Assembly: GCA_031296215.1 (NCBI GenBank)
Contig: JARLGE010000225.1
Location: 1-32,986, forward strand
Origin: Occallatibacter sp.
Lineage (GTDB): Bacteria > Acidobacteriota > Terriglobia > Terriglobales > Acidobacteriaceae
Direction of reading: 5' to 3'
DNA length: 32,986 nucleotides
Made by a program: the position numbers and the translations under genes. The notes below the pieces were generated by a model that worked only from the letters and a program-made list of their open reading frames with translations, had not been told where the DNA came from and did no database searches. Positions 1-13,830 of this stretch are shown here, one piece after another. How positions within the stretch are numbered: the stretch's first letter is position 1; each line of letters begins with the position of its first letter.

Positions 1-566
1 TGGGGATGAGCGAAGTCCAGACAATGCTCCTCACGAAGAAAGCTCTGACCCTGACGCGGAGTCAAGGGAAACCAGCGGGAGGTCAGGCGCCAGCCGAGCT
101 CTTCCAGGCAGGCCCGCGCCCGGCGCAGATCTTCGGCGGCGACGGCCACATCGAGGTCGCGCGCGTGGCGCAGACCGAGGTCTCCGTAGAGCTCGGAAGA
201 AAGCGCCGGCCCCTTGAACGGCATGGCCGGAATTTGAGCAGCGCTCAAGCACTTCAGCACCGCGGCCAGCAACAGGGAATGGCGCACGGCCCACATGCGG
301 CAGGCATCGCTGCGCTTTTTGAGCCCCTGCCGGGCGGGCTGAGGAATCTCCAATTCCGGCGCCAGCTTGAGCGCCGCCCAGCTGATGGCCGGCGTGCGGT
401 GACGGTCGACCAGGCGCAGATATTCCTCCCAGTCCACGCCCGCGAACCCGGCCGCGCGGATGGCCGACCGCTGAGGCTCCCGCCAGAGGTCCGGGGCCAG
501 CCAGGAGGTGGCCAGCATCAGGCGGAACGCGGGACTGGCGCTGCTAAGCCACACCGACTCGGCCAT
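1..566 (-). CDS. Nucleotidyltransferase of lasso cluster (partial, 3' end outside window)
   Basis: About 188 residues are visible from ATG 566; the C-terminal part lies beyond base 1. The segment around residues 113-135, FKGPALSSELYGDLGLRHAR followed by DLDVAV, matches the signature of the nucleotidyltransferase family found in lasso-peptide clusters (NTP_transf_5 type), where the DxD pair would bind metal and nucleotide. A GGAGGAG ribosome-binding site lies 7-8 bases before the ATG, inside the end of the exporter gene. The two genes overlap by 23 bases, so translation is probably coupled. In related clusters this protein occurs next to a kinase and is thought to modify the peptide or its phosphate; its exact reaction is inferred, not shown. 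The family call is firm, the role less so. Confidence 0.85.
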   Translation of the reverse strand, partial: MAESVWLSSASPAFRLMLATSWLAPDLWREPQRSAIRAAGFAGVDWEEYLRLVDRHRTPAISWAALKLAPELEIPQPARQGLKKRSDACRMWAVRHSLLLAAVLKCLSAAQIPAMPFKGPALSSELYGDLGLRHARDLDVAVAAEDLRRARACLEELGWRLTSRWFPLTPRQGQSFLREEHCLDFAHP

Positions 567-2352
567 GGCCAATCTCCTCCATCTGGGCGGCCCAGGAGCC
601 GGCGTAGGATCCGCCCAGCGCCACCAGCTCCGCATGCGTTCCCGATTCCACTACCCGCCCCTTGTCAAGTACATGAATCCGGTCGGCATGCATGGCGGTG
701 GTGAAGCGGTGGGTGATCATGAGCGCCGTCCGGCCCGCGGTGAGGGCGCGAAACCGCGCCAGCCAGTCCCGCTCTGCCCAGGAATCCATGGAGCTGGTCG
801 GCTCGTCCAGGATCACCAGCGAAGCGCGCCGGAAGAAGGCTCGGGCGAGGGCAATGCGCTGCCACTCGCCGCCGCTCAGCTCCGCGCCCCCGAACCACTT
901 GCCCAACTGCGCTTCCAAGCCTCCGGGCAGGCGCCCGATGGGCTCCATCGCCCCGGCATCGGCGGCGGCCTCAAGCAGCCGCGCCTGGTCGGATGCTGCC
1001 TCCAGGTCCCCGAACGCAATGTTCTCCCGGACGGTTGCGTGGTAGTGCACCGGATCCTGGAAGAGGACGGCAATCTGCCGCTGCACGGCGTCCCGGTCCA
1101 GGGCCCGCAAGTCCACGCCATCGAAGAGAATCCGCCCCGCATCGGGATCGTAGAAGCGGCAAAGCAGCTTGATCAGCGTGCTTTTACCCGCGCCATTGTG
1201 GCCCACCAGGGCAACCACCTTGCCGCGGGGAATCTCCAGGTCAAAGCCGTCCAGGGCGCGGTGGAATCCTCCGGGATAGGTGAAGCTGACCCCCTCGAAG
1301 CGGATCGCGTCTTTCACCGGCAGGCCGGGCTGCGCAGACGGACCGGAGAGGATCTCGGCCTTCAGCGCCAGAAACTCGTCCAGATTCTCGACAAACAGCA
1401 GGCTGCGATAGATTTTTCCAGCACCTTCGAGAAGTGCGCGCAGCAGAATCTGGCTTTGCTGGAAGGCTTGGAAGCAGAGCAGCAGGTCGCCCAGGCCGGC
1501 CTTTCCAGCCAGCGTGCGGCCGAGCATCCAGCCGAGTCCGGCCAGACTGCCCGCCCAGGCCAGCACCCCTGCGCCCAGTTCGGTCACCGCCCCTTCCCTG
1601 ACCAGGCTCAGCCGCCCTTCGCGGAGGCTGGCGCGGAGTGCTTCGAAGGCCCTCCGATGGTAGGCGCCCAGGCCAAACAGGCGCAGCTCAGCCGCGGCGC
1701 TGCGCTCGGTAATCAGCCAATCGAGGTAGCGCGTGCGCCGCTCCTGGCTGGTGTGCTCAAGATTCCAGCAGTGTTCGTTCAGAATGTGCCTGGCCACCAG
1801 CAGCAGGCCGGGAATTCCGGCAGCGACAACAAGCAGCGGCAGCCAGCGGGCATAGGTCCACAGGATTCCCGCCAGCACCAGAAAGCCCAGTCCGTTTTGC
1901 ACCAGGGAACCGAGACTTTCGAGCAGCGCCAGGGGCTGCGCAATGGCGTCGACGCGCGCCCGGTGCAGCATATCGTAGGATTCCGGATGGTCGTAAAAAG
2001 CCATGTCCAGGCGCAGAGCCTGGGCGTGAATCAGGCCATGGACCTGGTCCTGCACTCGTTCGGCCTGCACCGCCCGCACCCAGCTCAGGGCGCTGGACAA
2101 GAGTTGGGCCACGATCCACAGCGCGGCAATGCCCAGGGCAGGCGAGGCAATGGAAGTCCAGTGCGGCCGGGCCACCAGGCGATTGACCAGAGCCCTGAGC
2201 AGCAGCACCTGGCCGGCTGGAATCAATCCCTGCCCCACCAGCAGCGCGCCCCAGGCCAGGGTCCAGGAGCGCGCCGCCTCCCACACCAGCGCCAGAGCCC
2301 GGCGGCCGGCCGGCAACTGGTGAACGAACTGGCTGAGCTGGCTACGCAACAT
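544..2352 (-). CDS. Lasso peptide ABC exporter (protein D)
   Basis: A 602-residue half-transporter with an N-terminal transmembrane domain (about residues 25-310, several hydrophobic segments) fused to a C-terminal ATPase domain. The ATPase has every key motif: Walker A GHNGAGKST near 384, Q-loop LFQD near 431, signature LSGGEWQRIALAR near 492, Walker B LVILDE near 512 with D-loop SSMD, and H-loop THR. It would export the mature lasso peptide across the inner membrane and provide self-immunity. The start is ATG 2352, with GAGG 12 bases upstream. A TTG at 2364 would add four residues but sits directly on that GAGG. The gap to the upstream cyclase gene is 27 bases, and the 3' end overlaps the nucleotidyltransferase gene. 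Confidence 0.92.
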   Translation of the reverse strand: MLRSQLSQFVHQLPAGRRALALVWEAARSWTLAWGALLVGQGLIPAGQVLLLRALVNRLVARPHWTSIASPALGIAALWIVAQLLSSALSWVRAVQAERVQDQVHGLIHAQALRLDMAFYDHPESYDMLHRARVDAIAQPLALLESLGSLVQNGLGFLVLAGILWTYARWLPLLVVAAGIPGLLLVARHILNEHCWNLEHTSQERRTRYLDWLITERSAAAELRLFGLGAYHRRAFEALRASLREGRLSLVREGAVTELGAGVLAWAGSLAGLGWMLGRTLAGKAGLGDLLLCFQAFQQSQILLRALLEGAGKIYRSLLFVENLDEFLALKAEILSGPSAQPGLPVKDAIRFEGVSFTYPGGFHRALDGFDLEIPRGKVVALVGHNGAGKSTLIKLLCRFYDPDAGRILFDGVDLRALDRDAVQRQIAVLFQDPVHYHATVRENIAFGDLEAASDQARLLEAAADAGAMEPIGRLPGGLEAQLGKWFGGAELSGGEWQRIALARAFFRRASLVILDEPTSSMDSWAERDWLARFRALTAGRTALMITHRFTTAMHADRIHVLDKGRVVESGTHAELVALGGSYAGSWAAQMEEIGHGRVGVA

Positions 2353-2379
2353 GAAAACGAACAACCTCAGGAATTGGCG

Positions 2380-4296
2380 TTAGATCAAGCGGCGCAGAAA
2401 GAGCCCCACGCCCACTCCGCGGAGCAGAATCTGGCTGGCCCGGCTGGAGGTCCGCGGGTCGACCTTTGCAGCCAGATCGTCAAGACAGCGCAGGAGTAGC
2501 TTCATGTCAAGGAACTCCCTGATCGAAGGGTGCGCTTCGAACGAATCGAGAACCTGGCGGAATTGGGGCAGTTCGCGCAGGATCCTGTGCCCCAGATCCG
2601 CGGCTTGCAAACCCTTCAGGCGCCCTTCGAGCACCGCCGCCGGAAGGCGGCCGCGCATGGCTCGCCGCAGCAGGCAACTCGACTGGCCGCGGCGGCGAAA
2701 CTGATCGTCGGGAACGCGCAGGACAAACTCCACCAGCGGCAGATGGACGGTGGGATCGAGGTAAGCAACGGAATGAGCGGCCCCCAGCTCCGACCAGAGC
2801 CCCGCGCCGATGCCAAACACGGCGCGAAAGAAACGCAGGCGGCGATCTTCGCCGGGGGAGAATGTGCAGGTCGCGTCATGGCGGGCCGCGCTCATGCGCT
2901 CATGCAGATTGAATTCCAGGGCCACGGCGGGATTCAGCGCCGAGTAGGCCTGCCAGGGCGGCCTCGAGCCCAGCATACCGGGAAGCCGCCGGACAAGGCG
3001 AAGCGGGGGCGCCAGCAGAGGCTTCAACAGTTGCCGCTTGAACGTCAGCCAGGGATTGGGCTCCGCATGAAAGAGCAGGCGCAGCGCCGTTTGCCCGCGG
3101 CCCTGGGCGAGCGCCAGCAGCGCGGAGCCGTTGCCTTCCCAGGAGACAGTGGCGTTGCCCATCTGACCGGTGAGCACCACCGCGGCGCCCTGCCGCGACG
3201 CGGCCTCGGTCAAAGCCTGGAGCCAGTAGTGGTTGTTGGCGGCGTGGCTGGGTCCGTCATGAACGTCGAGAAAGTGCTCGATCCCGGCGATGACGCCGAA
3301 GCCCGCGGCATCGAGGGCGACATGCTCGACGTTGGGGCCTGCGAGCGCGGAAGTGGCGTGCGCCTGGCTCCATTCATCGCCCAGCCGGTGCTGCCCGGCG
3401 CCGTCGGCGGCCAGAAGCGGCACCGACGTATAAGCACGGAGAGACCGGCCCCGGGCGGCCAGCAGCGGCGCGGCGGTGGCCACCACGGAGCCGGAGTCGC
3501 GCCCCCCCGAGAGCGTTGCGGCCACCGGCTTGCGGGTGCGCAGGCAGCAGGCGACCGCCTGCGTCAAGCACTCCCGAAAGGCCTCCTCGTACTCCTCGTC
3601 GCGGCGGCAGGCCGGCGGCTCACGGCCCTCGGCGGACCAGTGGCGCCAAGTGCGTGTCTGCCCCTGGGGGCCGACGGTCATGGCGTGCGCCCAGACTAGC
3701 CGCCGGAGGCCCTGATAGGCGGTCCGATCCGCATCGTGCTGCCAGGAGACCAGCAACTCGGCCAGGCGCAGGCGGTCCGGCTGCCGCACCACTCCGGGCA
3801 GCGCCAGCAGCGCCTTCAGGCTGGAGGCAAAGGCGAAGAACCCCTTGCCCTCAAGGAAGTAAAGCGTGGCGTTTCCGCAGGCGTCCCTGGCCAGCAAAAG
3901 GCGGCGTCTACGCGCATCCCACGCAGCCAGCGCCCAGTCGCCCTGGAGATGGGTTGAAAGCTCGTCGCCCCAGCGGTCGAAGGCCAGACTGACCAGATGG
4001 CCGTCGGAGTTGAGCGCGGCATCCGCGGCAGAGATCCGGAAGGCCTCCAGGAGAGCGGCGCGGTTGTCCAGCCGAGCCGCGCTCACCACCAGCCCGCGCT
4101 CGCCCCGGACCGGCTGGCGCTCCTGGGCGTCTTCCGGGTTGACCTCCAGCAGCAGATGGCCCAGCCCCACGGCGCCTTCCACCCGGCTCTGTCCGCCGTG
4201 GGGGCCGTAGAAGGCCATCGCCGCCCGCATCCGCTCCAGCCAATCGGGGTCCGGAGGCGCGCCGTCATAGCTGTAGATGCCGTAGATTCCGCTCAC
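2380..4296 (-). CDS. Lasso cyclase, asparagine-synthetase-like (protein C)
   Basis: A 638-residue asparagine synthetase B homologue of the kind that adenylates a ring Asp/Glu of a lasso core and forms the isopeptide bond with residue 1. The N-terminal glutaminase-like domain starts (M)SGIYGIYSYDG and lacks the catalytic Cys that follows Met in true glutamine-dependent AsnB, so ammonia release from glutamine is not expected. The synthetase domain has the pyrophosphate loop SGGRDS at about residues 263-268. GTG 4296 is the start because it overlaps the B2 stop in a GTGA junction; the open frame continues upstream to 4743, but that part is the other-frame reading of B2. Surrounding B1, B2, kinase and exporter genes make the lasso assignment much stronger than asparagine synthesis. 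Confidence 0.93.
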   Translation of the reverse strand: MSGIYGIYSYDGAPPDPDWLERMRAAMAFYGPHGGQSRVEGAVGLGHLLLEVNPEDAQERQPVRGERGLVVSAARLDNRAALLEAFRISAADAALNSDGHLVSLAFDRWGDELSTHLQGDWALAAWDARRRRLLLARDACGNATLYFLEGKGFFAFASSLKALLALPGVVRQPDRLRLAELLVSWQHDADRTAYQGLRRLVWAHAMTVGPQGQTRTWRHWSAEGREPPACRRDEEYEEAFRECLTQAVACCLRTRKPVAATLSGGRDSGSVVATAAPLLAARGRSLRAYTSVPLLAADGAGQHRLGDEWSQAHATSALAGPNVEHVALDAAGFGVIAGIEHFLDVHDGPSHAANNHYWLQALTEAASRQGAAVVLTGQMGNATVSWEGNGSALLALAQGRGQTALRLLFHAEPNPWLTFKRQLLKPLLAPPLRLVRRLPGMLGSRPPWQAYSALNPAVALEFNLHERMSAARHDATCTFSPGEDRRLRFFRAVFGIGAGLWSELGAAHSVAYLDPTVHLPLVEFVLRVPDDQFRRRGQSSCLLRRAMRGRLPAAVLEGRLKGLQAADLGHRILRELPQFRQVLDSFEAHPSIREFLDMKLLLRCLDDLAAKVDPRTSSRASQILLRGVGVGLFLRRLI

Positions 4297-4754
4297 GTGC
4301 GTCTCCGCGCGAAGGTGGTAAAGACCTGGAAGGTCTGGTGGCCAGCGCCGCCGGTGACCACGGAGGAGCCCACGCGCAGCCAGGCATGGGCGTCGAAGGC
4401 CGATTCCTGACCCGTTCCCAGGCCGGGCCGCGCGCCAAAGCTCACCGTGCCCTCGAGGCCGCGGCGGCGCAGCATCGCTGTGGCCGCCAAAGCCTGGGCC
4501 AGGCAGCGGCCATCCCAGGGCACGCGGCGGCCCAGAACCCCGACCGCCCAGCCAATCTCTTCTCCCATGCGCGTCTCCGAGGGCGATGCCTCGGCTGGGC
4601 TCTCGGCTCCAGGGGTCCCCAGCCAGGCGGCAATGCGGCGGAAGGGCAGGCAGGCCATGGCCAGCCGGGCCAGGGCAAGCGCCGCCAGGGCTTCGGCGAG
4701 CAGCGCCTTGCGGGCGCGCGGAAGATCTCGAAGGCGCTTCCATTCATTCCACAC
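4293..4754 (-). CDS. Lasso leader peptidase, transglutaminase-like (protein B2)
   Basis: A 153-residue protein of the lasso B2 (transglutaminase-like cysteine protease) family, which removes the precursor leader. The Cys is in the GRCLAQALA motif (residue 84) and the His in FDAHAWLRVG (residue 123). The third acidic residue, usually about 12 positions after this His, is not evident (Gly there). GTG 4754 was chosen because it lies 11 bases inside the end of B1, with a GGGAAGGG stretch upstream; an in-frame ATG at 4799 would add 15 residues and deepen the overlap. The stop overlaps the cyclase GTG by four bases. The length suits stand-alone B2 proteins, which work with a separate PqqD-like B1. 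Confidence 0.88.
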   Translation of the reverse strand: MWNEWKRLRDLPRARKALLAEALAALALARLAMACLPFRRIAAWLGTPGAESPAEASPSETRMGEEIGWAVGVLGRRVPWDGRCLAQALAATAMLRRRGLEGTVSFGARPGLGTGQESAFDAHAWLRVGSSVVTGGAGHQTFQVFTTFARRRT

Positions 4755-5022
4755 GCAGCAACCCTTCCCGCTGCATCGCCTGGAGAAATTTCTCCACATC
4801 GGCCGCGCAGGTCTCGGGTGAGACCTGGTACTGCCGAATCAGGCGGGCAACAAGGGCGGAGAAGGTCATGGGCGCGGCGAGAGTCTCCCAGATGGTCCGC
4901 GCCGGCCCCTCCAGGCCGTAGTAGGCTCCCGCGTCCAGGCTCATCAGCACCGTCTCCTGGTCCAGCTCCGTGGAGAGCAGGTTTTCGACGCGGGACAGTC
5001 TGTCTTCAGGACCGAAGCGCAT
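4744..5022 (-). CDS. PqqD-family RiPP recognition element (protein B1)
   Basis: A 92-residue PqqD-like protein. The pattern ETVLMSLDAGAYYGL at about 23-37, IWETL at 44-48, and a helical C-terminus with KFLQAMQREGLL is characteristic of the winged-helix RiPP recognition element, which binds the leader of the precursor and delivers it to B2 and the cyclase. ATG 5022 has a GAGGAGA ribosome-binding site about eight bases upstream and lies 17 bases inside the end of the kinase gene. The 3' end overlaps B2 by 11 bases. Split B1 and B2 genes are typical outside the classical McjB-type proteobacterial clusters. Confidence 0.92.
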   Translation of the reverse strand: MRFGPEDRLSRVENLLSTELDQETVLMSLDAGAYYGLEGPARTIWETLAAPMTFSALVARLIRQYQVSPETCAADVEKFLQAMQREGLLRVE

Positions 5023-5950
5023 GGAGCTCGTCTCCTCTGGTTTGGTTCATGCGAGCGAAGCGTTGCGCCCAGGCCGCTTCAAGAAACTCGACCAAAGTTC
5101 CCACCCTTTCGGGGGCGCGTTGCCGGGTCACGACGGCGATGGTGCACTTCTCCGCAATCCGGCTCGCCATCCGCATCAGGTCTCCCTGTGTGCCCTGCCC
5201 TTTGAGAAAATGGGGCCGGTACAGGTTTCCGAGGAGCCGCTCGACCCGTTCAAATCCGCGCAGAACCCGGAACTCGGGAGTTCCCTGGTTGTGGCCCGCG
5301 AGAACGTGAATGGCGGCGAGCGGCACGGGGGTGGGGCAATAGCCGTGACCCATCGGCACCACAAATTTATCCACATCGAAGCGCCCGCCGGCCGGCGATC
5401 CTAGCTGTTCAAAGGCATCCGCGCACAACCGGAACTGAGCCGGCGCGGGAAGAATCCGCAACAGGTCCGCGGCCGCCTCCACGGCGCACACGTCGTCAGA
5501 GAGCAGGCGGAAGCCGCGACGGTGAAACTCGGCCGCCAGCGTGGATTTGCCCGCGCCCTGCGCTCCCACAAAAACCATCGCTCCCCAGGGCGTCTCCACC
5601 GCGCTCCCATGCAGCGGAAACAGCCCCCGCTGGTAGAGCAGCGCGCCCATGGCCGAGCCCAGCAGAAACAGACGGACCTTTTCCGGCGCGGCGCCGGCGA
5701 CAGGCTCAATCGCGATCTGACGCCCGCCTTCCACCCGGTACTGGGCCACGCCTGCCACCGCCAAGCGGAAGGCTCCAGGCCGGGTCTCGTAATAGCCGTT
5801 CTGCAAAGGCTCCGTCGCTTGAGCGGATTCGGGCAGCAGGCGGATGGTCACATCGGGATTCCCGTCCGTCTCGGAATGAGACGGAAGTTCGGGACAATCC
5901 AGTTCCGCATGAATGCGGAGACCATAAGCCCAGTATGCGTTGCGGTGCAT
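5006..5950 (-). CDS. HPr-kinase-like lasso tailoring kinase
   Basis: A 314-residue protein with the HPr kinase/phosphorylase fold signature: LHGSAV near residue 112, P-loop GAQGAGKST near 129-137 and LLSDDV near 149-154. Homologues in lasso clusters (ThcoK, PadeK) phosphorylate the C-terminal Ser of the precursor; the same job is inferred here from the neighbours. There is no HPr or PTS gene nearby. It is the first recognisable gene of the minus-strand operon. The start is ATG 5950, which has GAGG six bases upstream; ATG 5956 overlaps that GAGG and is a two-residue-longer alternative. The stop overlaps the PqqD gene by 17 bases. Confidence 0.85.
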   Translation of the reverse strand: MHRNAYWAYGLRIHAELDCPELPSHSETDGNPDVTIRLLPESAQATEPLQNGYYETRPGAFRLAVAGVAQYRVEGGRQIAIEPVAGAAPEKVRLFLLGSAMGALLYQRGLFPLHGSAVETPWGAMVFVGAQGAGKSTLAAEFHRRGFRLLSDDVCAVEAAADLLRILPAPAQFRLCADAFEQLGSPAGGRFDVDKFVVPMGHGYCPTPVPLAAIHVLAGHNQGTPEFRVLRGFERVERLLGNLYRPHFLKGQGTQGDLMRMASRIAEKCTIAVVTRQRAPERVGTLVEFLEAAWAQRFARMNQTRGDELHALRS

Positions 5951-6480
5951 CTTCATCCTCGAATGAGATCGAAATCCAGCGCTTCCTTTACACCGCCTCA
6001 ACAGACTCCGGCGCGAGGCCTCCTGAAGATCGAGGGACGAGAAGAGATTAGCTCATGGAAAATGCGTTTTGGCCTTGAAAACACAGCGTCCAAGACTTGC
6101 GCAGCCAGCTTTGCGCCCAACTTTTCAATCTGGCCCAATTCGGTACAGTCCAAGCACAGCGAGGCCAGACGCAGGGCCGTCCGGTTTTGCGCCGGTCAGG
6201 CCTTTCGACTTTGGCGGCGGCGGCGGCGTTTGGTTCGGCTGGACGGATCTCATAAGAATCAGTCTTGCCGATTGGGGTCCATCGGACTGGCCGGCGCGCA
6301 CCCAGGAGCTTTCGTTCCTTTCGTCATTAAAGCCAATCGTCCCATTACTTTTTGCTGGCCTGCGCGGGTTGGAATCGTCACGCCGGAACGAGCCCGCGCC
6401 GATGGGATAGGGGTCGGCCCACCCAGGGTTTTTCAGATTCTTCCTGGAACGCGACGAGAAAACCATAGAGGAACCGCCCC
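5951..6480. other. Divergent intergenic region between lasso operon and repeat protein
   Basis: A 530-base stretch separating two divergently transcribed units. It must hold the promoter of the minus-strand lasso operon and that of the plus-strand repeat protein; no convincing -35/-10 pair was found for either. The lasso precursor gene, if it is in this window, should be here. All six frames were read. Only the weak candidate at 6125-6253 shows a Gly plus acid spacing with a leader-like stretch. The region contains a GGC repeat near 6213-6228 that reads as Pro codons on the minus strand. Confidence 0.7.
6125..6253 (-). CDS. Candidate lasso precursor peptide (weak)
   Basis: A 42-residue open frame 175 bases upstream of the kinase, in the only place where the operon could hold its precursor. 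A Pro-rich segment (residues 10-14) is followed by KSK and then Gly18. Taking Gly18 as core residue 1, Asp25 is position 8 (GLTGAKPD), a legal ring size, followed by a 17-residue tail with Tyr37 and Arg38 as possible bulky plugs. Against it: no ribosome-binding site is seen, the usual Thr at -2 is Ser, the YxxPxL leader motif is absent, and the C-terminal residue is Asp, not the Ser expected for a kinase-containing cluster. A Gly with an acid at 7-9 also arises often by chance. The frame is open further up to ATG 6466. Confidence 0.2.
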   Translation of the reverse strand: MRSVQPNQTPPPPPKSKGLTGAKPDGPASGLAVLGLYRIGPD

Positions 6481-9400
6481 ATGCGGAAGTTTCTGCTCAG
6501 CGGCCTGCTCGTTCTCTGTCCAGCACTATCGTTCGCCGGCGTGGTGAGCGCCTCAAGCAGCGTGGCGGTGACGGCGACCCCGGCGAGCCCCGCGTATGGA
6601 AGCCCCATCACGCTGGCGGCCACGGTCGTAGACCAGAACGGGAACCCGCTCACGAACGGCGCCGTCACCTTCTATGACGGCAACGTCCGGCTGGGAACGG
6701 TTCAGGTGGCGAGCACAGCCTTGGCCGGCGGCGTCCCCGGCACGGCGACGCTCACAACCTTCCTGACGCAACTGGGCTCGAACAGCATTACGGCAACGTA
6801 TGCGGGAGCCGGCGCAGCAAGCGCCTCCGCGCCTGTCACGGTCACAGTGACCGGCCTCTATCCAGCCGCCGCCGCGCTGACCGCCTCGGGCAGCGCGGGA
6901 AACTACTCCTTGACTGCGACTGTCCTTGGGGCCAGCCCGGTCGCACCTACTGGAAGCGTCGTGTTCACCGACTCAACGACCGGTCTTGAGATCGGCGCGG
7001 CGAGCTTCAACTCCTCCTCACCGGCACAGACGTTCACCGTTGCCGCCGCCACAGGCGTGACCGCTCCGCAGGCCGCGGCTCTCGACGACGTGAACGGAGA
7101 CGGAATCCTCGACCTGGTTGCCGGCAGCGCCTCCGGGCTCTTCGTGCAACTGGGCAACGGAGACGGCAGCTTCCGCGCGCCGGTTCAAGTTTCCTCCTCG
7201 AGCGTCTCTCCGGCAGCCACCTTTGGCCTGCTACCCGGCGCCAGCATGGTCTTCGGCGACTTCAACGGCGACGGCAAGATCGACATTGCCTTCGTCTCCT
7301 GCGCAGGCTCGAACTGCGCGGTGGGCGTGCTACCGGGCAACGGCGACGGCACCTTCCTGCCGGAGCGCGACTTCGACCAGGGCGAAACGATTGCAGCCAT
7401 CGCGGCAGGCGATTTCAACGGCGATGGAATCCTGGACCTGGCGGTAGCCAAATACGGCAATGGAACTGTCGACATATTGCCGGGCAACGGCGACGGCAGC
7501 TTCCAGACGCCGCTCACCATCTCCATGCCGGGAGCGAGTTCGATTGCCGCGGCAGACCTGAACGGCGACGGCATGCTCGACCTGGTTGTATCCAGCTGGA
7601 GCGCAGCCACTGTAAGCGTGCTGACGGGCAAGGGCGACGGGACCTTCCAGGCGGCTCAACCGTACGCGACAGGCGCGAACCCAAGCAACGTGATCCTTGC
7701 CGACCTGCGCGGCATCGGCAGGCTCGACATCGTGAACCTCGACGCCAACGGCTCAGTCAGCGCGCTGCTGGCGAACGGCGACGGCTCGTTCCAGCCGGCC
7801 ACGCCGGTCTTCACTGCCTCCTCGGAGAGCGTGGCCAGCCTGGCCGTGGCCGACGTGAATGGCGACGGCAGACAGGACCTGGTGGTCTCCGACCAGGCCG
7901 GCAATGCGGTCGATGTGCTGGCGGGCAACGGCGACGGCACCTTTGAAGGCCCCGTCTCCTATTCGACCGGAGCGGCTCCCCACGGCGTTGCGGTTGGAGA
8001 CCTGAACCACGACGGCCTGGCTGACATCGCCGTCGCCAGCCAGACCGCCAACTCCACCACGATTCTGCTCAACCAGGTGACGCAGACCGCGACGCTGAGC
8101 AATGCGGCCATTCCCGGCAAGGGCACGCACTCGGTCGTCGCGGCCTACTCCGGCGATGCGAACTTTGCCGCCTCCACCTCGAACCCGGTGCAGCTTGCCG
8201 CCGCCCTCGCCACGCCAAGCATGAGCCTGGCCTGGCTGCCCGCAGCCACCCTCGCCTGGGGCCAGGCACTGAGCCTGAGCGTAGCGCTGGCCGGGCCTTC
8301 CGCCACGCTGCCCACGCCCACCGGCACGGCCAGCTACTCCATCGACAAGGGATCCGTCCGCAAGGTAAACCTGGCCGCCGGCGCGGTCACCGTCCCCATC
8401 AGCCAGCTTGCCGTCGGCGCTCATTCCATCTCCGTCACCTATGGTGGCGACTGCTACTACGCCGCCCTGCCAGCGCAGACTCTGGCGGTGAATGTCGACC
8501 TGGCCTTGCCCGTTATCAGCTGGCCCGCTCCGGCCGACCTCCCCTACGGCAAGGCGCTCAACGGCGTGCAGCTCAACGCCACCGCGAACACGGCTGGAAC
8601 TTTCGCATACTCTCCAGCCGCGGGAACGGTCCTGGCCGCCGGCTCGCAGACCCTCTCCGTCACCTTCACCCCCACCAACGCCAGCGTCTACGCCGCGGCG
8701 ACGGCCACGGTCACGCTGACTGTGAATCCTGCCACACCGGGCGTAAGCTGGTCCGAGCCGGCAGCCATTCCCTACGGAACCGCTTTGAGCGCGACGCAGC
8801 TCGATGCCTCTTCTCCCATTGCCGGAACCTTCGCCTACTCGCCAGCCGCGGGAGCAATACTGACCGCCGGATGGCAAACGCTCTCCGTCACCTTCACACC
8901 CACCGACGCCACCGACTACAACTCCGCGACGGCCACCGTGAAACTGAGTGTGAGCGCGGCCAAGCCTGCCATAACCTGGGCGACGCCGGCCCCCATCGCC
9001 AATGGAACCGCCTTGAGCGCGACCCAGCTCAACGCCAGCTCGCCGCCGGCCGGAACCTTCGTCTACACCCCTGCGTCCGGCACCGTGCTGGCCCCAGGAG
9101 CGCATATTCTCTCCGTCGCCTTTACCCCGGCCGACAGCACCGACTACACCACGGCCACCGGCACAGTGACAGAGCTGGTCGGACCCGGCATCTCCACCCA
9201 ACCCGCCAATGCCAAGGTGGTGTTTGGCCAGAGCGCCACCTTCAAAGTGTGCGCATCGGGCGCGGCGCCGGTTACCTACCAGTGGCAGTATCTGAACGGC
9301 TCGACGTGGAGGCCTTTCGGCGCGGGCGCCGGTTATACCACCGCCACCCTGACCACCTTCCCCACCACCGCGATGTTTGGCGGCGCACAACTTCGGGTGG

Positions 9401-10296
9401 TCGTCACCGACGGCAACGGCCTCTCCGCAGCCAGCAACGCCGCCACGCTGACCGTGACGCCCGCGATTCTCACCCAGCCGGTATCGCAAACTGTCGCCTT
9501 TGGCGCAAGCGCCACGTTCAGCGTGGCGGTGGGCGGCGTGGGCAACCTAACTTACCAGTGGCAGTATCTGAACGGCTCGACGTGGATGCCTTTCGGAGCG
9601 GGCACCGGCTATAACACCGCCACGGTCACCACCTTCCCTACCACCGCAGCTTTTGACCGGGTTCAGTTCAGGGTGGTGGCGACCGACGGCAACGGCTTCA
9701 CCGTGACCAGCTGCCAAGCCAGGCTGTTGGTGGCTCCGGCCATCCTCGCCGCGCCCTTTAGCCAAACGGTCGCCGGCGGCAGCGCGGCAGTCTTCACCGT
9801 CTCAGCCACCGGCCTGGGAAGCCTCAGCTACACCTGGCAATACTGGAACGGAAGCGCCTGGGTTACATTCACGCCGGCCATGGCAAAGGCCTACTTCACG
9901 GCCACCCTCACCACCGTTCCGGCCACCGCGGCCTTGAACGGGCTGCAGCTTCGAGTGCAGGTGACCGGCAACGGCACCACCGCCACCAGCGCCCCGGTGA
10001 CCCTGATTGTGACACCCGGCATCACGCAGCAACCAACCCGCCAGACGGTGCCAGTGAATTGGAGCGCCACCTTCAGCGTGACGGTCGTTGGCGTGCCCAA
10101 CCTTATCTACCAGTGGCAATACCTCGACGGCGCCAACTGGACGCCTTTCTGCACAGGCAGCGGCTACGATGCGGCCATCTTCACCACCGTGAACAACCCA
10201 TTGGCCAGCAACGGCACACAAGTCAGGGCCGTGATCACCGACGGACAAGGCCTCACCGTCACCAGTAAAGCGGTAACGCTGACCGTGATTCTTTAG
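6481..10296 (+). CDS. Secreted Ig-like / FG-GAP / MBG-repeat protein
   Basis: A 1271-residue exported protein. Residues 1-22 form a Sec signal peptide (MRKFLLSGLL, then a hydrophobic core ending ALSFAG). Next come an Ig-like domain (about 25-125), a second Ig-like domain interrupted by an FG-GAP/VCBS block of seven repeats (about 200-515, with six clear or near-clear DxNxDG-type calcium loops and one degenerate), a third Ig-like domain (about 577-676), three MBG-type repeats (about 678-900, with YGTALSATQL and TFTPTDATDY signatures) and four Ig-like repeats (about 901-1271, with YQWQYLNGSTW). No C-terminal sorting signal was recognised. ATG 6481 has GAGGAA about eight bases upstream. Such proteins are usually cell-surface or secreted adhesion or carbohydrate-binding scaffolds; the ligand is unknown. 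Confidence 0.9.
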   Translation: MRKFLLSGLLVLCPALSFAGVVSASSSVAVTATPASPAYGSPITLAATVVDQNGNPLTNGAVTFYDGNVRLGTVQVASTALAGGVPGTATLTTFLTQLGSNSITATYAGAGAASASAPVTVTVTGLYPAAAALTASGSAGNYSLTATVLGASPVAPTGSVVFTDSTTGLEIGAASFNSSSPAQTFTVAAATGVTAPQAAALDDVNGDGILDLVAGSASGLFVQLGNGDGSFRAPVQVSSSSVSPAATFGLLPGASMVFGDFNGDGKIDIAFVSCAGSNCAVGVLPGNGDGTFLPERDFDQGETIAAIAAGDFNGDGILDLAVAKYGNGTVDILPGNGDGSFQTPLTISMPGASSIAAADLNGDGMLDLVVSSWSAATVSVLTGKGDGTFQAAQPYATGANPSNVILADLRGIGRLDIVNLDANGSVSALLANGDGSFQPATPVFTASSESVASLAVADVNGDGRQDLVVSDQAGNAVDVLAGNGDGTFEGPVSYSTGAAPHGVAVGDLNHDGLADIAVASQTANSTTILLNQVTQTATLSNAAIPGKGTHSVVAAYSGDANFAASTSNPVQLAAALATPSMSLAWLPAATLAWGQALSLSVALAGPSATLPTPTGTASYSIDKGSVRKVNLAAGAVTVPISQLAVGAHSISVTYGGDCYYAALPAQTLAVNVDLALPVISWPAPADLPYGKALNGVQLNATANTAGTFAYSPAAGTVLAAGSQTLSVTFTPTNASVYAAATATVTLTVNPATPGVSWSEPAAIPYGTALSATQLDASSPIAGTFAYSPAAGAILTAGWQTLSVTFTPTDATDYNSATATVKLSVSAAKPAITWATPAPIANGTALSATQLNASSPPAGTFVYTPASGTVLAPGAHILSVAFTPADSTDYTTATGTVTELVGPGISTQPANAKVVFGQSATFKVCASGAAPVTYQWQYLNGSTWRPFGAGAGYTTATLTTFPTTAMFGGAQLRVVVTDGNGLSAASNAATLTVTPAILTQPVSQTVAFGASATFSVAVGGVGNLTYQWQYLNGSTWMPFGAGTGYNTATVTTFPTTAAFDRVQFRVVATDGNGFTVTSCQARLLVAPAILAAPFSQTVAGGSAAVFTVSATGLGSLSYTWQYWNGSAWVTFTPAMAKAYFTATLTTVPATAALNGLQLRVQVTGNGTTATSAPVTLIVTPGITQQPTRQTVPVNWSATFSVTVVGVPNLIYQWQYLDGANWTPFCTGSGYDAAIFTTVNNPLASNGTQVRAVITDGQGLTVTSKAVTLTVIL

Positions 10297-11841: not shown

Positions 11842-11982
11842 CAGGGGTCAGGGGTCAGCCCGCATCGCTCGGCCCGCAGCAGCCCCTCCTGTTTCCTACT
11901 CCCTATTCCCTATTCCCTATTCTCTTTTCCCTTTTCCCTATTCCCTTTTCCCTGTTCCCTGACGCCTGGCCCCTGACCCCTG
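11842..11982. repeat. CCCTATTCCCT-type short repeat array with inverted ends
   Basis: The stretch between deoC and the phosphatase gene. It starts with CAGGGGTCAGGGGTCAG (11842-11858), holds a run of about ten units of the type CCCTATT or CCCTTTT, and ends with CCCCTGACCCCTG (11970-11982), the inverted copy of its start. Related arrays occur at 26023-26079 and 27040-27075. The unit length varies between 7 and 8 bases, so this is not a CRISPR. Confidence 0.75.
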
Positions 11983-12006
11983 CGCTATCATTCCTATTCG
12001 ACCCCC

Positions 12007-13830
12007 ATGTCCTCCAAACCCCCACTTCCGCCGGATGAACCTGAATTCGAAGGCGACTACCGCCCCGCCGATCCCGCCAACCCACACGCTCATCTGGACC
12101 CTGTCAACGCCCGGGTTGAAACGGCCGACCTCAATTACCTGGTCCGCCTTGCCGACGCCCTCAACACCACGCTCGATCTCGACACCCTGCTCAACCGCAC
12201 CGCGGAGCTGGTGCGCACCCTCATCGACTACCGCATCTTCGCTATTCTGCTGCTCAACGACCGCACTCACGAGCTGCGCATGCGGTTCCAGATCGGCCAC
12301 ACCCCCCAGACCGAGCGCATCCGCGTGCCGCTGGGCCGCGGCGTCGTGGGCCAGGTGGCGCTAACCCGCCAGTCCATTCTGCTCAACGATGTCTCGACCT
12401 CCGCTATCTACTTCGCCGTGAATCCCGACGTGCGCTCGGAGCTATGCGTCCCGCTGATCGCCAAGAACCGCCTCATCGGCGTCATGGACATCGAGAGCGA
12501 GCAGGCCGACTACTTTCGCCCCGAGCACCTGCACGTGCTCACGCTGACCGCCTCGCGCATCGCCCAGGCCACCGAGAACGCCCGCCTTTACACCCGCGTC
12601 TCACGCCAGGCCGAGGTCCTCGCGGTCCTCAACGAGATCGCCGTCGAGCTGACTTCCATTCTCGATCTCGATCCACTGCTAGAGCGCGTCGGCCAGCTTC
12701 TGCGCCGCCTCATCGACTACCAGATGTTTACCATCATGCTGCTGGACGAGAAGGGCGAAGTGCTCATCACGCGCTACGCATGGCGCTTCGGCTACGCCCA
12801 CGCCCCGCTGCGCCGCATCTCGGTCTCGAGCGGGCTGGTCGGCGCCGCCGTGCGCGAGTGGCGTCCCATCAACGTGCCCGACGTGCGCAAGGACTCGCGC
12901 TACCTGCCCATGAACCCCGAGACCCGCTCCGAACTGGTGGTGCCGCTGTTCTATAAAGGCCGCGTCATCGGCGTGCTCGACCTGGAACATACCCGCCCCG
13001 GCTTCTTCAACGAAGGTCACGAGCGCATGCTCACCACCCTTGCCGCGCAGGTGGCCATCGCCATCGAGAACGCCCGGCTCTACCAGGCCGTCCGGCGCCA
13101 GGAGCGCCAGCTTGAGCGCGACATCGCGATGGCCCGCGAGGTGCAACTGCGCCTGCTGCCCGCCGCGGCTCCCGAGCAGCCCAACGCCGAAATGGCGGTC
13201 CGCTTTCTGCCCGCGCGCACCATCGGCGGGGACCTCTACGACTTTCTCGACTACGGCGCCGGCCGCACCGCCATCGTTCTGGGCGACGTGAGCGGCAAGG
13301 CCGCACCCGCGGCCCTCTTTGCGGCGCTGGTGAGCGGCATCATGCGCTCCGCCGCATTGCATCACCCCGAACCGGCGAAGATGCTGGCCAACCTCAACGA
13401 CGCGCTGCAGGAGCGCAAGCTCGAATCGCAGTACGTGACGCTGCTCTTCGCCCTCTGGAACGACGAAACCCGCACCCTCACCGTGGCCAACTCCGGCGCC
13501 GTGCAGCCCATCTTCTGCCGCCAGGGCCAGTCGAACGCCATGCGCGCCGAAGGCTTCCCGCTGGGACTCTTTCCCGACGTCGTCTACGACGAAATCCGCC
13601 TCGAAGCCCAGCCCGGCGACGCAATTGTCTTTGTCTCCGACGGCATCCTCGACGCCGAAAACGACCAAGGCGCGATGTACGGCGAAGAGCGGCTCTCCCA
13701 CCTGCTCTGCGCCAGCCGCGACAACCCCCCAGCGGAGATCGCCGACGCCATCCTCGCCGACGTAGCCCGATTCCAGGGGGCCCACGACCGCTTCGACGAC
13801 GAAACCATCATCGTGCTGCGGGTGCGATAA
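12007..13830 (+). CDS. GAF-GAF-SpoIIE serine phosphatase (RsbU-like)
   Basis: A 607-residue cytoplasmic signalling protein. Two GAF domains (about 60-195 and 215-362, each starting with a helical linker of the ALNTTLDLDTLLNRTAELV type) precede a coiled segment (QERQLERDIAMAREVQLRLLP) and a PPM/SpoIIE phosphatase domain (about 395-605). Metal-binding motifs are present: GGDLYDF, GDVSGK, SDGILDAEN and DDETIIVLRVR. Such proteins dephosphorylate an anti-sigma-factor antagonist in response to a small ligand bound by the GAF domains. No partner anti-sigma or antagonist gene is in the window. ATG 12007 follows the short-repeat array; no strong ribosome-binding site was seen. Confidence 0.93.
   Translation: MSSKPPLPPDEPEFEGDYRPADPANPHAHLDPVNARVETADLNYLVRLADALNTTLDLDTLLNRTAELVRTLIDYRIFAILLLNDRTHELRMRFQIGHTPQTERIRVPLGRGVVGQVALTRQSILLNDVSTSAIYFAVNPDVRSELCVPLIAKNRLIGVMDIESEQADYFRPEHLHVLTLTASRIAQATENARLYTRVSRQAEVLAVLNEIAVELTSILDLDPLLERVGQLLRRLIDYQMFTIMLLDEKGEVLITRYAWRFGYAHAPLRRISVSSGLVGAAVREWRPINVPDVRKDSRYLPMNPETRSELVVPLFYKGRVIGVLDLEHTRPGFFNEGHERMLTTLAAQVAIAIENARLYQAVRRQERQLERDIAMAREVQLRLLPAAAPEQPNAEMAVRFLPARTIGGDLYDFLDYGAGRTAIVLGDVSGKAAPAALFAALVSGIMRSAALHHPEPAKMLANLNDALQERKLESQYVTLLFALWNDETRTLTVANSGAVQPIFCRQGQSNAMRAEGFPLGLFPDVVYDEIRLEAQPGDAIVFVSDGILDAENDQGAMYGEERLSHLLCASRDNPPAEIADAILADVARFQGAHDRFDDETIIVLRVR

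Follow-up and report, generated by a model that had tools for sequence, protein, structure and literature searches.

Lasso-peptide clusters that carry a peptide kinase are already on record from Acidobacteriaceae, Bradymonadales, Sphingomonadales, and Bacillota. In the paeninodin-type systems of Bacillota (PadeA/PadeK, PbaA/PbaB1), a kinase stands together with B1, B2, C, and an ATP-binding cassette (ABC) exporter, and paeninodins, with WxxP leaders and a Gly-type RiPP (ribosomally synthesized and post-translationally modified peptide) recognition element (RRE), are described as restricted to Bacillota in PMC13381572. The lasso kinase is described as modifying the precursor while still linear, at its C-terminal Ser, and in the pseudomycoidin cluster psm (PsmK, PsmN) the phosphoserine is reported to receive one or two hexoses in a PsmN-dependent manner (PMC9266682, PMC8498205). 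The Bsf cluster of Bradymonas sediminis holds K, B1, B2, C, D, and N together, and the same report (PMC10368454) mentions kinase-type clusters with Ile/Val(-2) in Acidobacteriaceae. Moreover, rumen Butyrivibrio lasso clusters carry HPr kinase and nucleotidyltransferase genes (PMC7533575), and a lasso cluster in Granulicella has been listed (PMC7074687). Acidobacterial lasso clusters with B1, B2, and C, whose best matches are Acidobacteria, were described from soil fosmids in PMC9064862, according to which the product of the cluster expressed was not detected; likened by description to the locus treated here, BGC 482.1 of that work has two precursor genes and a gene labelled kinase, although the latter is annotated as an aminoglycoside phosphotransferase. 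The window analysed here is a whole contig (JARLGE010000225.1, our C329) of 32,986 bases from the assembly of a soil acidobacterium, Occallatibacter sp., of 4.17 Mb (350 contigs, 88% complete). Six closely packed genes, all on the minus strand and running from 5950 to 1, very probably form in it a class II lasso-peptide operon of the order K-B1-B2-C-D-N; the precursor gene A would be expected to follow shortly after N, in the missing sequence. The cluster is genuine but fairly ordinary, and what is modestly new in it concerns the precursors and the recognition of their leaders.

The original prediction for this DNA had proposed six co-directional genes for a kinase, B1, B2, a cyclase, an exporter, and a nucleotidyltransferase (NTase), and all of them lie where it placed them, the NTase being truncated because the window begins at base 1 of the contig. 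Overlaps join kinase to B1, B1 to B2 (56 bases), and B2 to the cyclase, the stop of B2 and the start of the cyclase sharing GTGA. The lasso reading is borne out by B2, which matches Transglut_core3 at 75.9 bits (cut-off 26) and exceeds the lasso-specific cut-off of NF033537 lasso_biosyn_B2 (87.2 bits, cut-off 33); its catalytic Cys and His are kept in 26 of 27 aligned rows, and the remaining row is in a wrong frame. B1 and the cyclase also match lasso models best, though under their cut-offs. B1 scores 62.9 bits with PqqD PF05402 (cut-off 23.4) and 69.8 with NF033536 lasso_PqqD_Bac (cut-off 80), and matches the lasso RRE structures 9x90 and 5v1u almost equally (35.4 and 34.3 bits). The cyclase scores 83.2 bits with Asn_synthase (cut-off 21), has a GATase domain above its Pfam cut-off, and finds its best NCBIfam model in the lasso cyclase NF033535 (263.2 bits, cut-off 525); a comparison with solved structures gave a single match, a hydroxyamidotransferase, and no lasso cyclase. 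Cys2 is a feature of glutamine-hydrolysing synthetases. The cyclase begins with M-S-G, without Cys2, and keeps the ATP motif SGGRDSG, and Bacillota lasso cyclases fetched for comparison likewise lack Cys2 (M-S-A, M-S-L).

By profile, the kinase is the weakest of the six, with 22.9 bits for Hpr_kinase_C PF07475 (cut-off 33.3) and 37.3 for TIGR04352 HprK_rel_A (cut-off 200), its best NCBIfam match. It retains the His, the P-loop GKS, and the Asp-Asp of the motif described for lasso kinases; in the alignment that includes it, His and GKS are present in 34/34 kinases and Asp-Asp in 33/34, with Glu-Asp in locus L066. The exporter matches ABC_tran (115.8 bits, cut-off 25) and, among NCBIfam models, MsbA best; at 78-82% identity to the copies in loci L025 and L026 of relatives, it is the most conserved operon protein in that comparison. 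The NTase belongs to NTP_transf_5 PF14907 (95.2 bits, cut-off 31.2) and to no NCBIfam family; it stays open for 188 or 211 codons, according to the start chosen, before the contig ends, and the available piece retains KG and DLD. Its AlphaFold2 model, built on a three-row alignment, has a mean predicted local distance difference test score (pLDDT) of 42.5, and no conclusion rests on it.

Neither of the two outcomes that the original prediction named as contradicting it was seen: B2 passes a lasso-specific cut-off while B1 and the cyclase fit lasso models best, and precursors occur in same-genus relatives. Seven same-genus genomes hold nine small precursors, eight of which share a contig with orthologous cluster genes. 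All nine leaders have Trp(-16), Pro(-13), and Thr(-2)-Ala(-1), within the motif WxxPx[LF], and the putative cores, delimited by means of Thr(-2) and the ring acid, comprise 15-19 residues with Asp at position 8 or 9 (D7 and D8 in one peptide) and end in Ser in 9/9 cases. Six contigs contain both NTase and precursor, and on each of them the precursor lies downstream of the NTase; in 5/6 the nearest one is on the same strand at a distance of 0.1-0.4 kb, and in L126 it is about 0.6 kb away. The strict leader motif occurred nine times in 49 sources (730 kb), always within these precursors. With a broader lasso motif, the 22 family loci that hold the kinase gave eight candidates and nine kinase-free control loci of the genus gave none; those in L064, L066, L071, L074, and L081 are plausible by eye, while those in L065, L080, and L084 look like chance and were not counted as precursors. 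Across the order, the precursor profile matched 5/397 genomes at E <= 0.001: in four, all of the genus, the peptide has cluster genes next to it, and the fifth is a chance match, in G123, which was dropped since it lies inside an 823-codon frame. Three of the nine precursors had no match to NCBIfam at E <= 1, where a Priestia control scored 57.7 bits (NF033524, cut-off 27), and naming by those models would therefore miss them; two compared with Pfam had no match either. The open-access literature on lasso peptides and Acidobacteriaceae yielded only PMC10368454, whose supplementary lists may already include these precursors. The genome of L026 contains a second such precursor, at L088 3319-3489 (-), on a contig of 3.7 kb.

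These features bear on whether the cluster could instead make a linear phosphorylated peptide (LPP), as in Bacilli, or serve an exopolysaccharide role through HprK-rel-A-type genes, the cyclase-like gene then being an ordinary amidotransferase. LPP clusters do share a core of HprK-like kinase, RRE, NTP transferase, and MsbA-like exporter (PMC13381572), and HprK_rel_A and MsbA are the best models for kinase and exporter here. However, a B2 above the lasso cut-off, a cyclase that fits the lasso model best and lacks Cys2, and a ring-forming acid at positions 7-9 after Thr(-2) in all nine precursors make such a role extremely unlikely. Moreover, the six genes include no signal peptidase; the SipW-like enzyme that is an LPP trait was looked for among these genes and not in the rest of the genome, and cyclase and B2 are both present.

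Several observations nevertheless weigh against the lasso-operon reading. The product is a prediction from the genes, and kinase, B1, and cyclase all score under the curated cut-offs of their NCBIfam models. The precursor of L126 is on the strand opposite to the NTase, that of L128 is encoded on the other strand and upstream of the kinase, and that of L088 is on a contig without a visible cluster. L028 has no ABC gene after the cyclase, an unrelated open reading frame (ORF) of 499 codons standing there instead, and the gene order is therefore not fixed throughout. In genome G248 the orthologous kinase (L131 12879-13762) is split over two reading frames in a cluster that is otherwise complete, which means that the gene is broken or that the sequence contains an error. 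Not all kinase loci of the family have a full set (B2 in 15/22, cyclase in 16/22, neither in L085). In addition, no precursor was found in the window, either among the small ORFs around the kinase or with the broad lasso motif on both strands, nor elsewhere in this assembly (G000; 88% complete) by protein, profile, and DNA-pattern searches, of which the profile does detect the peptides of relatives, weak matches there (E 0.1-1) being left uncounted, and the DNA pattern was run without a genome known to match.

The missing precursor, the patchy occurrence of the cluster (8/80 genus genomes), and the kinase of G248 in two frames would all fit a decayed remnant that has lost its precursor, but this seems very unlikely, since the five complete genes of the window are open with their motifs intact, the assembly is incomplete, and the contig stops within N, beside the place that A occupies in relatives. 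The rest of N is likewise not found in the assembly, where the PF14907 matches are limited to the truncated copy and a complete one on contig C17. The absence of a precursor is best explained by an assembly break, because the precursors of relatives mostly lie next to N, where this contig stops. G261 is the one other genome that has a cluster but in which no precursor was detected, and its contig also ends in the NTase. We infer that this genome has an A gene.

The acidobacterial origin put forward in the original prediction agrees with the four nearest named records, which are three Acidobacteriaceae metagenome-assembled genomes (MAGs) and one Acidobacteria MAG. The taxonomic range that it gave for such clusters, mainly Firmicutes and Proteobacteria, is refined by kinase-bearing ones already reported from Acidobacteriaceae (PMC10368454). 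A kinase search of 80 same-genus genomes gave 11 matches at E <= 1e-10, own genome included; the orthologous kinase is present in eight (own included), the seven others being taken as holding orthologues because of their 60-70% identity. The six-gene order recurs in L025, L026, and L131, the last of which reads K-B1-B2-C-D-N-A-A on one strand, and part copies exist in L027, L028, L128, and L133. Among 200 family genomes, 22 have a kinase match, own included. PF14907 occurs somewhere in all 21 others, of which 16 have it at most 10 kb from the kinase; the five without a match at that distance are G031, G055, G128, G129, and G148 (G055 and G129 on short contigs). A single ORF of 555-623 residues encodes both NTase and B2 in 4/22 family loci (L068, L073, L075, L079). 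This links the NTase with the lasso pathway, and such fusions have been described in Firmicutes (PMC8498205). Other NTP_transf_5 genes were noticed in L034 (G000:C17) and L039 (G200:C251), one, by eye, next to a sugar transferase and a phosphotransferase-like gene and the other next to a radical SAM gene, and the family may therefore also serve other pathways.

In trees of kinase, B2, and cyclase, the window groups with its genus relatives at support 100/100 (5, 5, and 4 rows, respectively), apart from the Bacillota rows, while deeper in the trees several forks are unresolved or poorly supported. These trees exclude rows that were short or cut, and an Antarctobacter B2 row was dropped as a wrong frame of 24 residues. 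Among plasmid records, B2 matched in seven and the kinase in 14, and seven regions were fetched from them; one of them, from Rhizorhabdus (L103), has a kinase piece without annotated lasso genes beside it. A kinase/NTase lasso locus on an Azospirillum oryzae plasmid (L104) contains a small ORF at 11904-12080 (-) with a WxxPxL leader and a C-terminal Ser that has no NCBIfam match, and Trp leaders outside Bacillota are thus not unique to the acidobacterial clade.

With the paeninodin type, represented by a Priestia plasmid cluster, the nine precursors share the WxxPxL leader, Thr(-2), and the C-terminal Ser. However, their leader is one residue longer (W-16, as against the W-15 given for PbaA), the three tested precursors fail to match the paeninodin family model NF033524 lasso_PadeA_fam, and the trees set the genus clade apart. 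The RRE signature of the paeninodin type, as given in PMC13381572, consists of Gly at position 42 of PbaB1 and Gln, not Asp, at position 79. With positions mapped by hand and PDB 9x90 taken as PbaB1, the B1 of the window has Glu38 and Asp75 instead, and five B1 proteins of the clade have E/K/A/A/A and D/D/D/D/E, the Tyr-binding Asp being kept in 4/5; a Paenibacillus B1 fetched for comparison has the expected Gly and Gln. The Bsf type differs in other traits, with a YxxPxL leader, Ile(-2), and Ser3 as the target of BsfK (PMC10368454), whereas in the clade Trp and Thr(-2) are found in 9/9 leaders and the conserved Ser is C-terminal, core position 3 not being conserved (Thr3 in 1/9, Ser3 in 0/9). 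It could tentatively be proposed, at somewhat less than even chances, that the genus has a lasso subfamily of its own, for which no model exists as yet, which came independently to the paeninodin solution, that is, a Trp leader, a C-terminal phosphoserine, and a kinase plus NTase, and which kept the Tyr-type RRE contact.

For the lasso operon itself, we infer the substrate, the order of steps, and the chemistry of the NTase from characterised counterparts (PadeK, ThcoK, PsmK/PsmN, and BsfK). B1 would bind the WxxPx[LF] leader, and the kinase would phosphorylate the core at its C-terminal Ser, probably while the precursor is still linear. B2 would then cleave after Thr-Ala, and the ATP-dependent cyclase would close a ring between residue 1 and Asp8 or Asp9, with the tail threaded through it. 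The NTase-like enzyme could next modify the phosphoserine, with a sugar more likely than a nucleotide, as reported for PsmN, and the ABC transporter would export the product. The phosphorylated peptide of the original prediction finds support in the kept kinase motifs, and C-terminal phosphorylation appears well founded because Ser ends the precursors of relatives in all nine cases. Most likely, the product is a lasso peptide that is phosphorylated at its C-terminus and probably capped with a sugar.

The psm cluster, likened to this one through reviews and by description, comes from a Bacillota host and shares the combination of kinase and nucleotidyltransferase as well as a C-terminal Ser as the modified residue. 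Its knock-outs are reported to link PsmN with one or two hexoses, and no nucleotidyl adduct is reported in the available parts of PMC9266682 and PMC8498205. It seems rather unlikely that the NTase truly transfers a nucleoside monophosphate (NMP) to the phosphoserine and yields a nucleotidylated lasso peptide. In favour of this reading, the KG...DxD motif of its family is kept in the available piece and in the 21 other aligned rows covering that part, and PMC9266682 leaves room for a nucleotidylation of pseudomycoidin that is followed by glycosylation through an enzyme of the host. Deletion of LppN in a heterologous host caused no change (PMC13381572), which favours neither the sugar nor the nucleotide. 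The original prediction was right to call this step poorly understood, but its nucleotidyl transfer has to be set against the hexose addition reported for the homologue PsmN (PMC9266682).

Table 1. Coordinates of the operon genes and of the adjoining gap in the window.
Feature	Position	Strand	Remarks
HprK-like peptide kinase (K)	5006..5950	-	start ATG 5950 preferred, with GAGG six bases upstream; alternatives ATG 5956 or TTG 6001
B1, discrete RRE / PqqD-like leader-binding protein	4744..5022	-	PF05402, NF033536
B2, transglutaminase-like leader peptidase	4293..4799	-	NF033537
C, asparagine-synthetase-like lasso cyclase	2380..4296	-	GTG start; NF033535
D, ABC exporter (permease-ATPase)	544..2364	-	start TTG 2364 or ATG 2352; ABC_tran
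N, NTP_transf_5 nucleotidyltransferase, 3' part missing	1..635	-	start ATG 635, or ATG 566 as in L026; PF14907
Gap between kinase and FG-GAP repeat gene	5951..6480	.	small-ORF listing, motif scan, promoter scan

In the gap upstream of the kinase (Table 1), no precursor was seen in the small-ORF listing or the motif scan, and the promoter scan gave no sigma-70-like match. The operon is adjoined by a gene at 6481-10296 (+) for a protein of 1271 residues with FG-GAP and bacterial Ig-like repeats, the first 340 codons of which are unmatched in the fetched operon copies of relatives, where flanks are mostly short. The opposite side of the contig shows synteny with genomes of the genus (62-86% identity in nine stretches fetched around deoC), with GAF/PP2C in 8/9, aroA in 4/9, tolC and truA in 2/9, and pepT in 1/9; operon genes occur in none of the nine, each of which extends at least 9 kb toward the side that carries the operon in the window. 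A second, partial deoC in the same assembly (G000:C236:5913-6338), 75% identical to the copy in the window, may come from a second strain of the genus mixed into the bin.

With this operon and its relatives, the phosphorylated lasso peptides gain a well-supported clade from Acidobacteria that has nine precursors with paeninodin-like leaders, and these clusters offer natural test cases for what the cluster-borne NTase transfers and for why the leaders of kinase-type lasso peptides use Trp over Tyr. If the clade is indeed a separate subfamily, the Trp leader would go with the kinase/NTase pathway, beyond a mere avoidance of cross-talk with LPP, and cores of 15-19 residues would bear a phospho-sugar cap.

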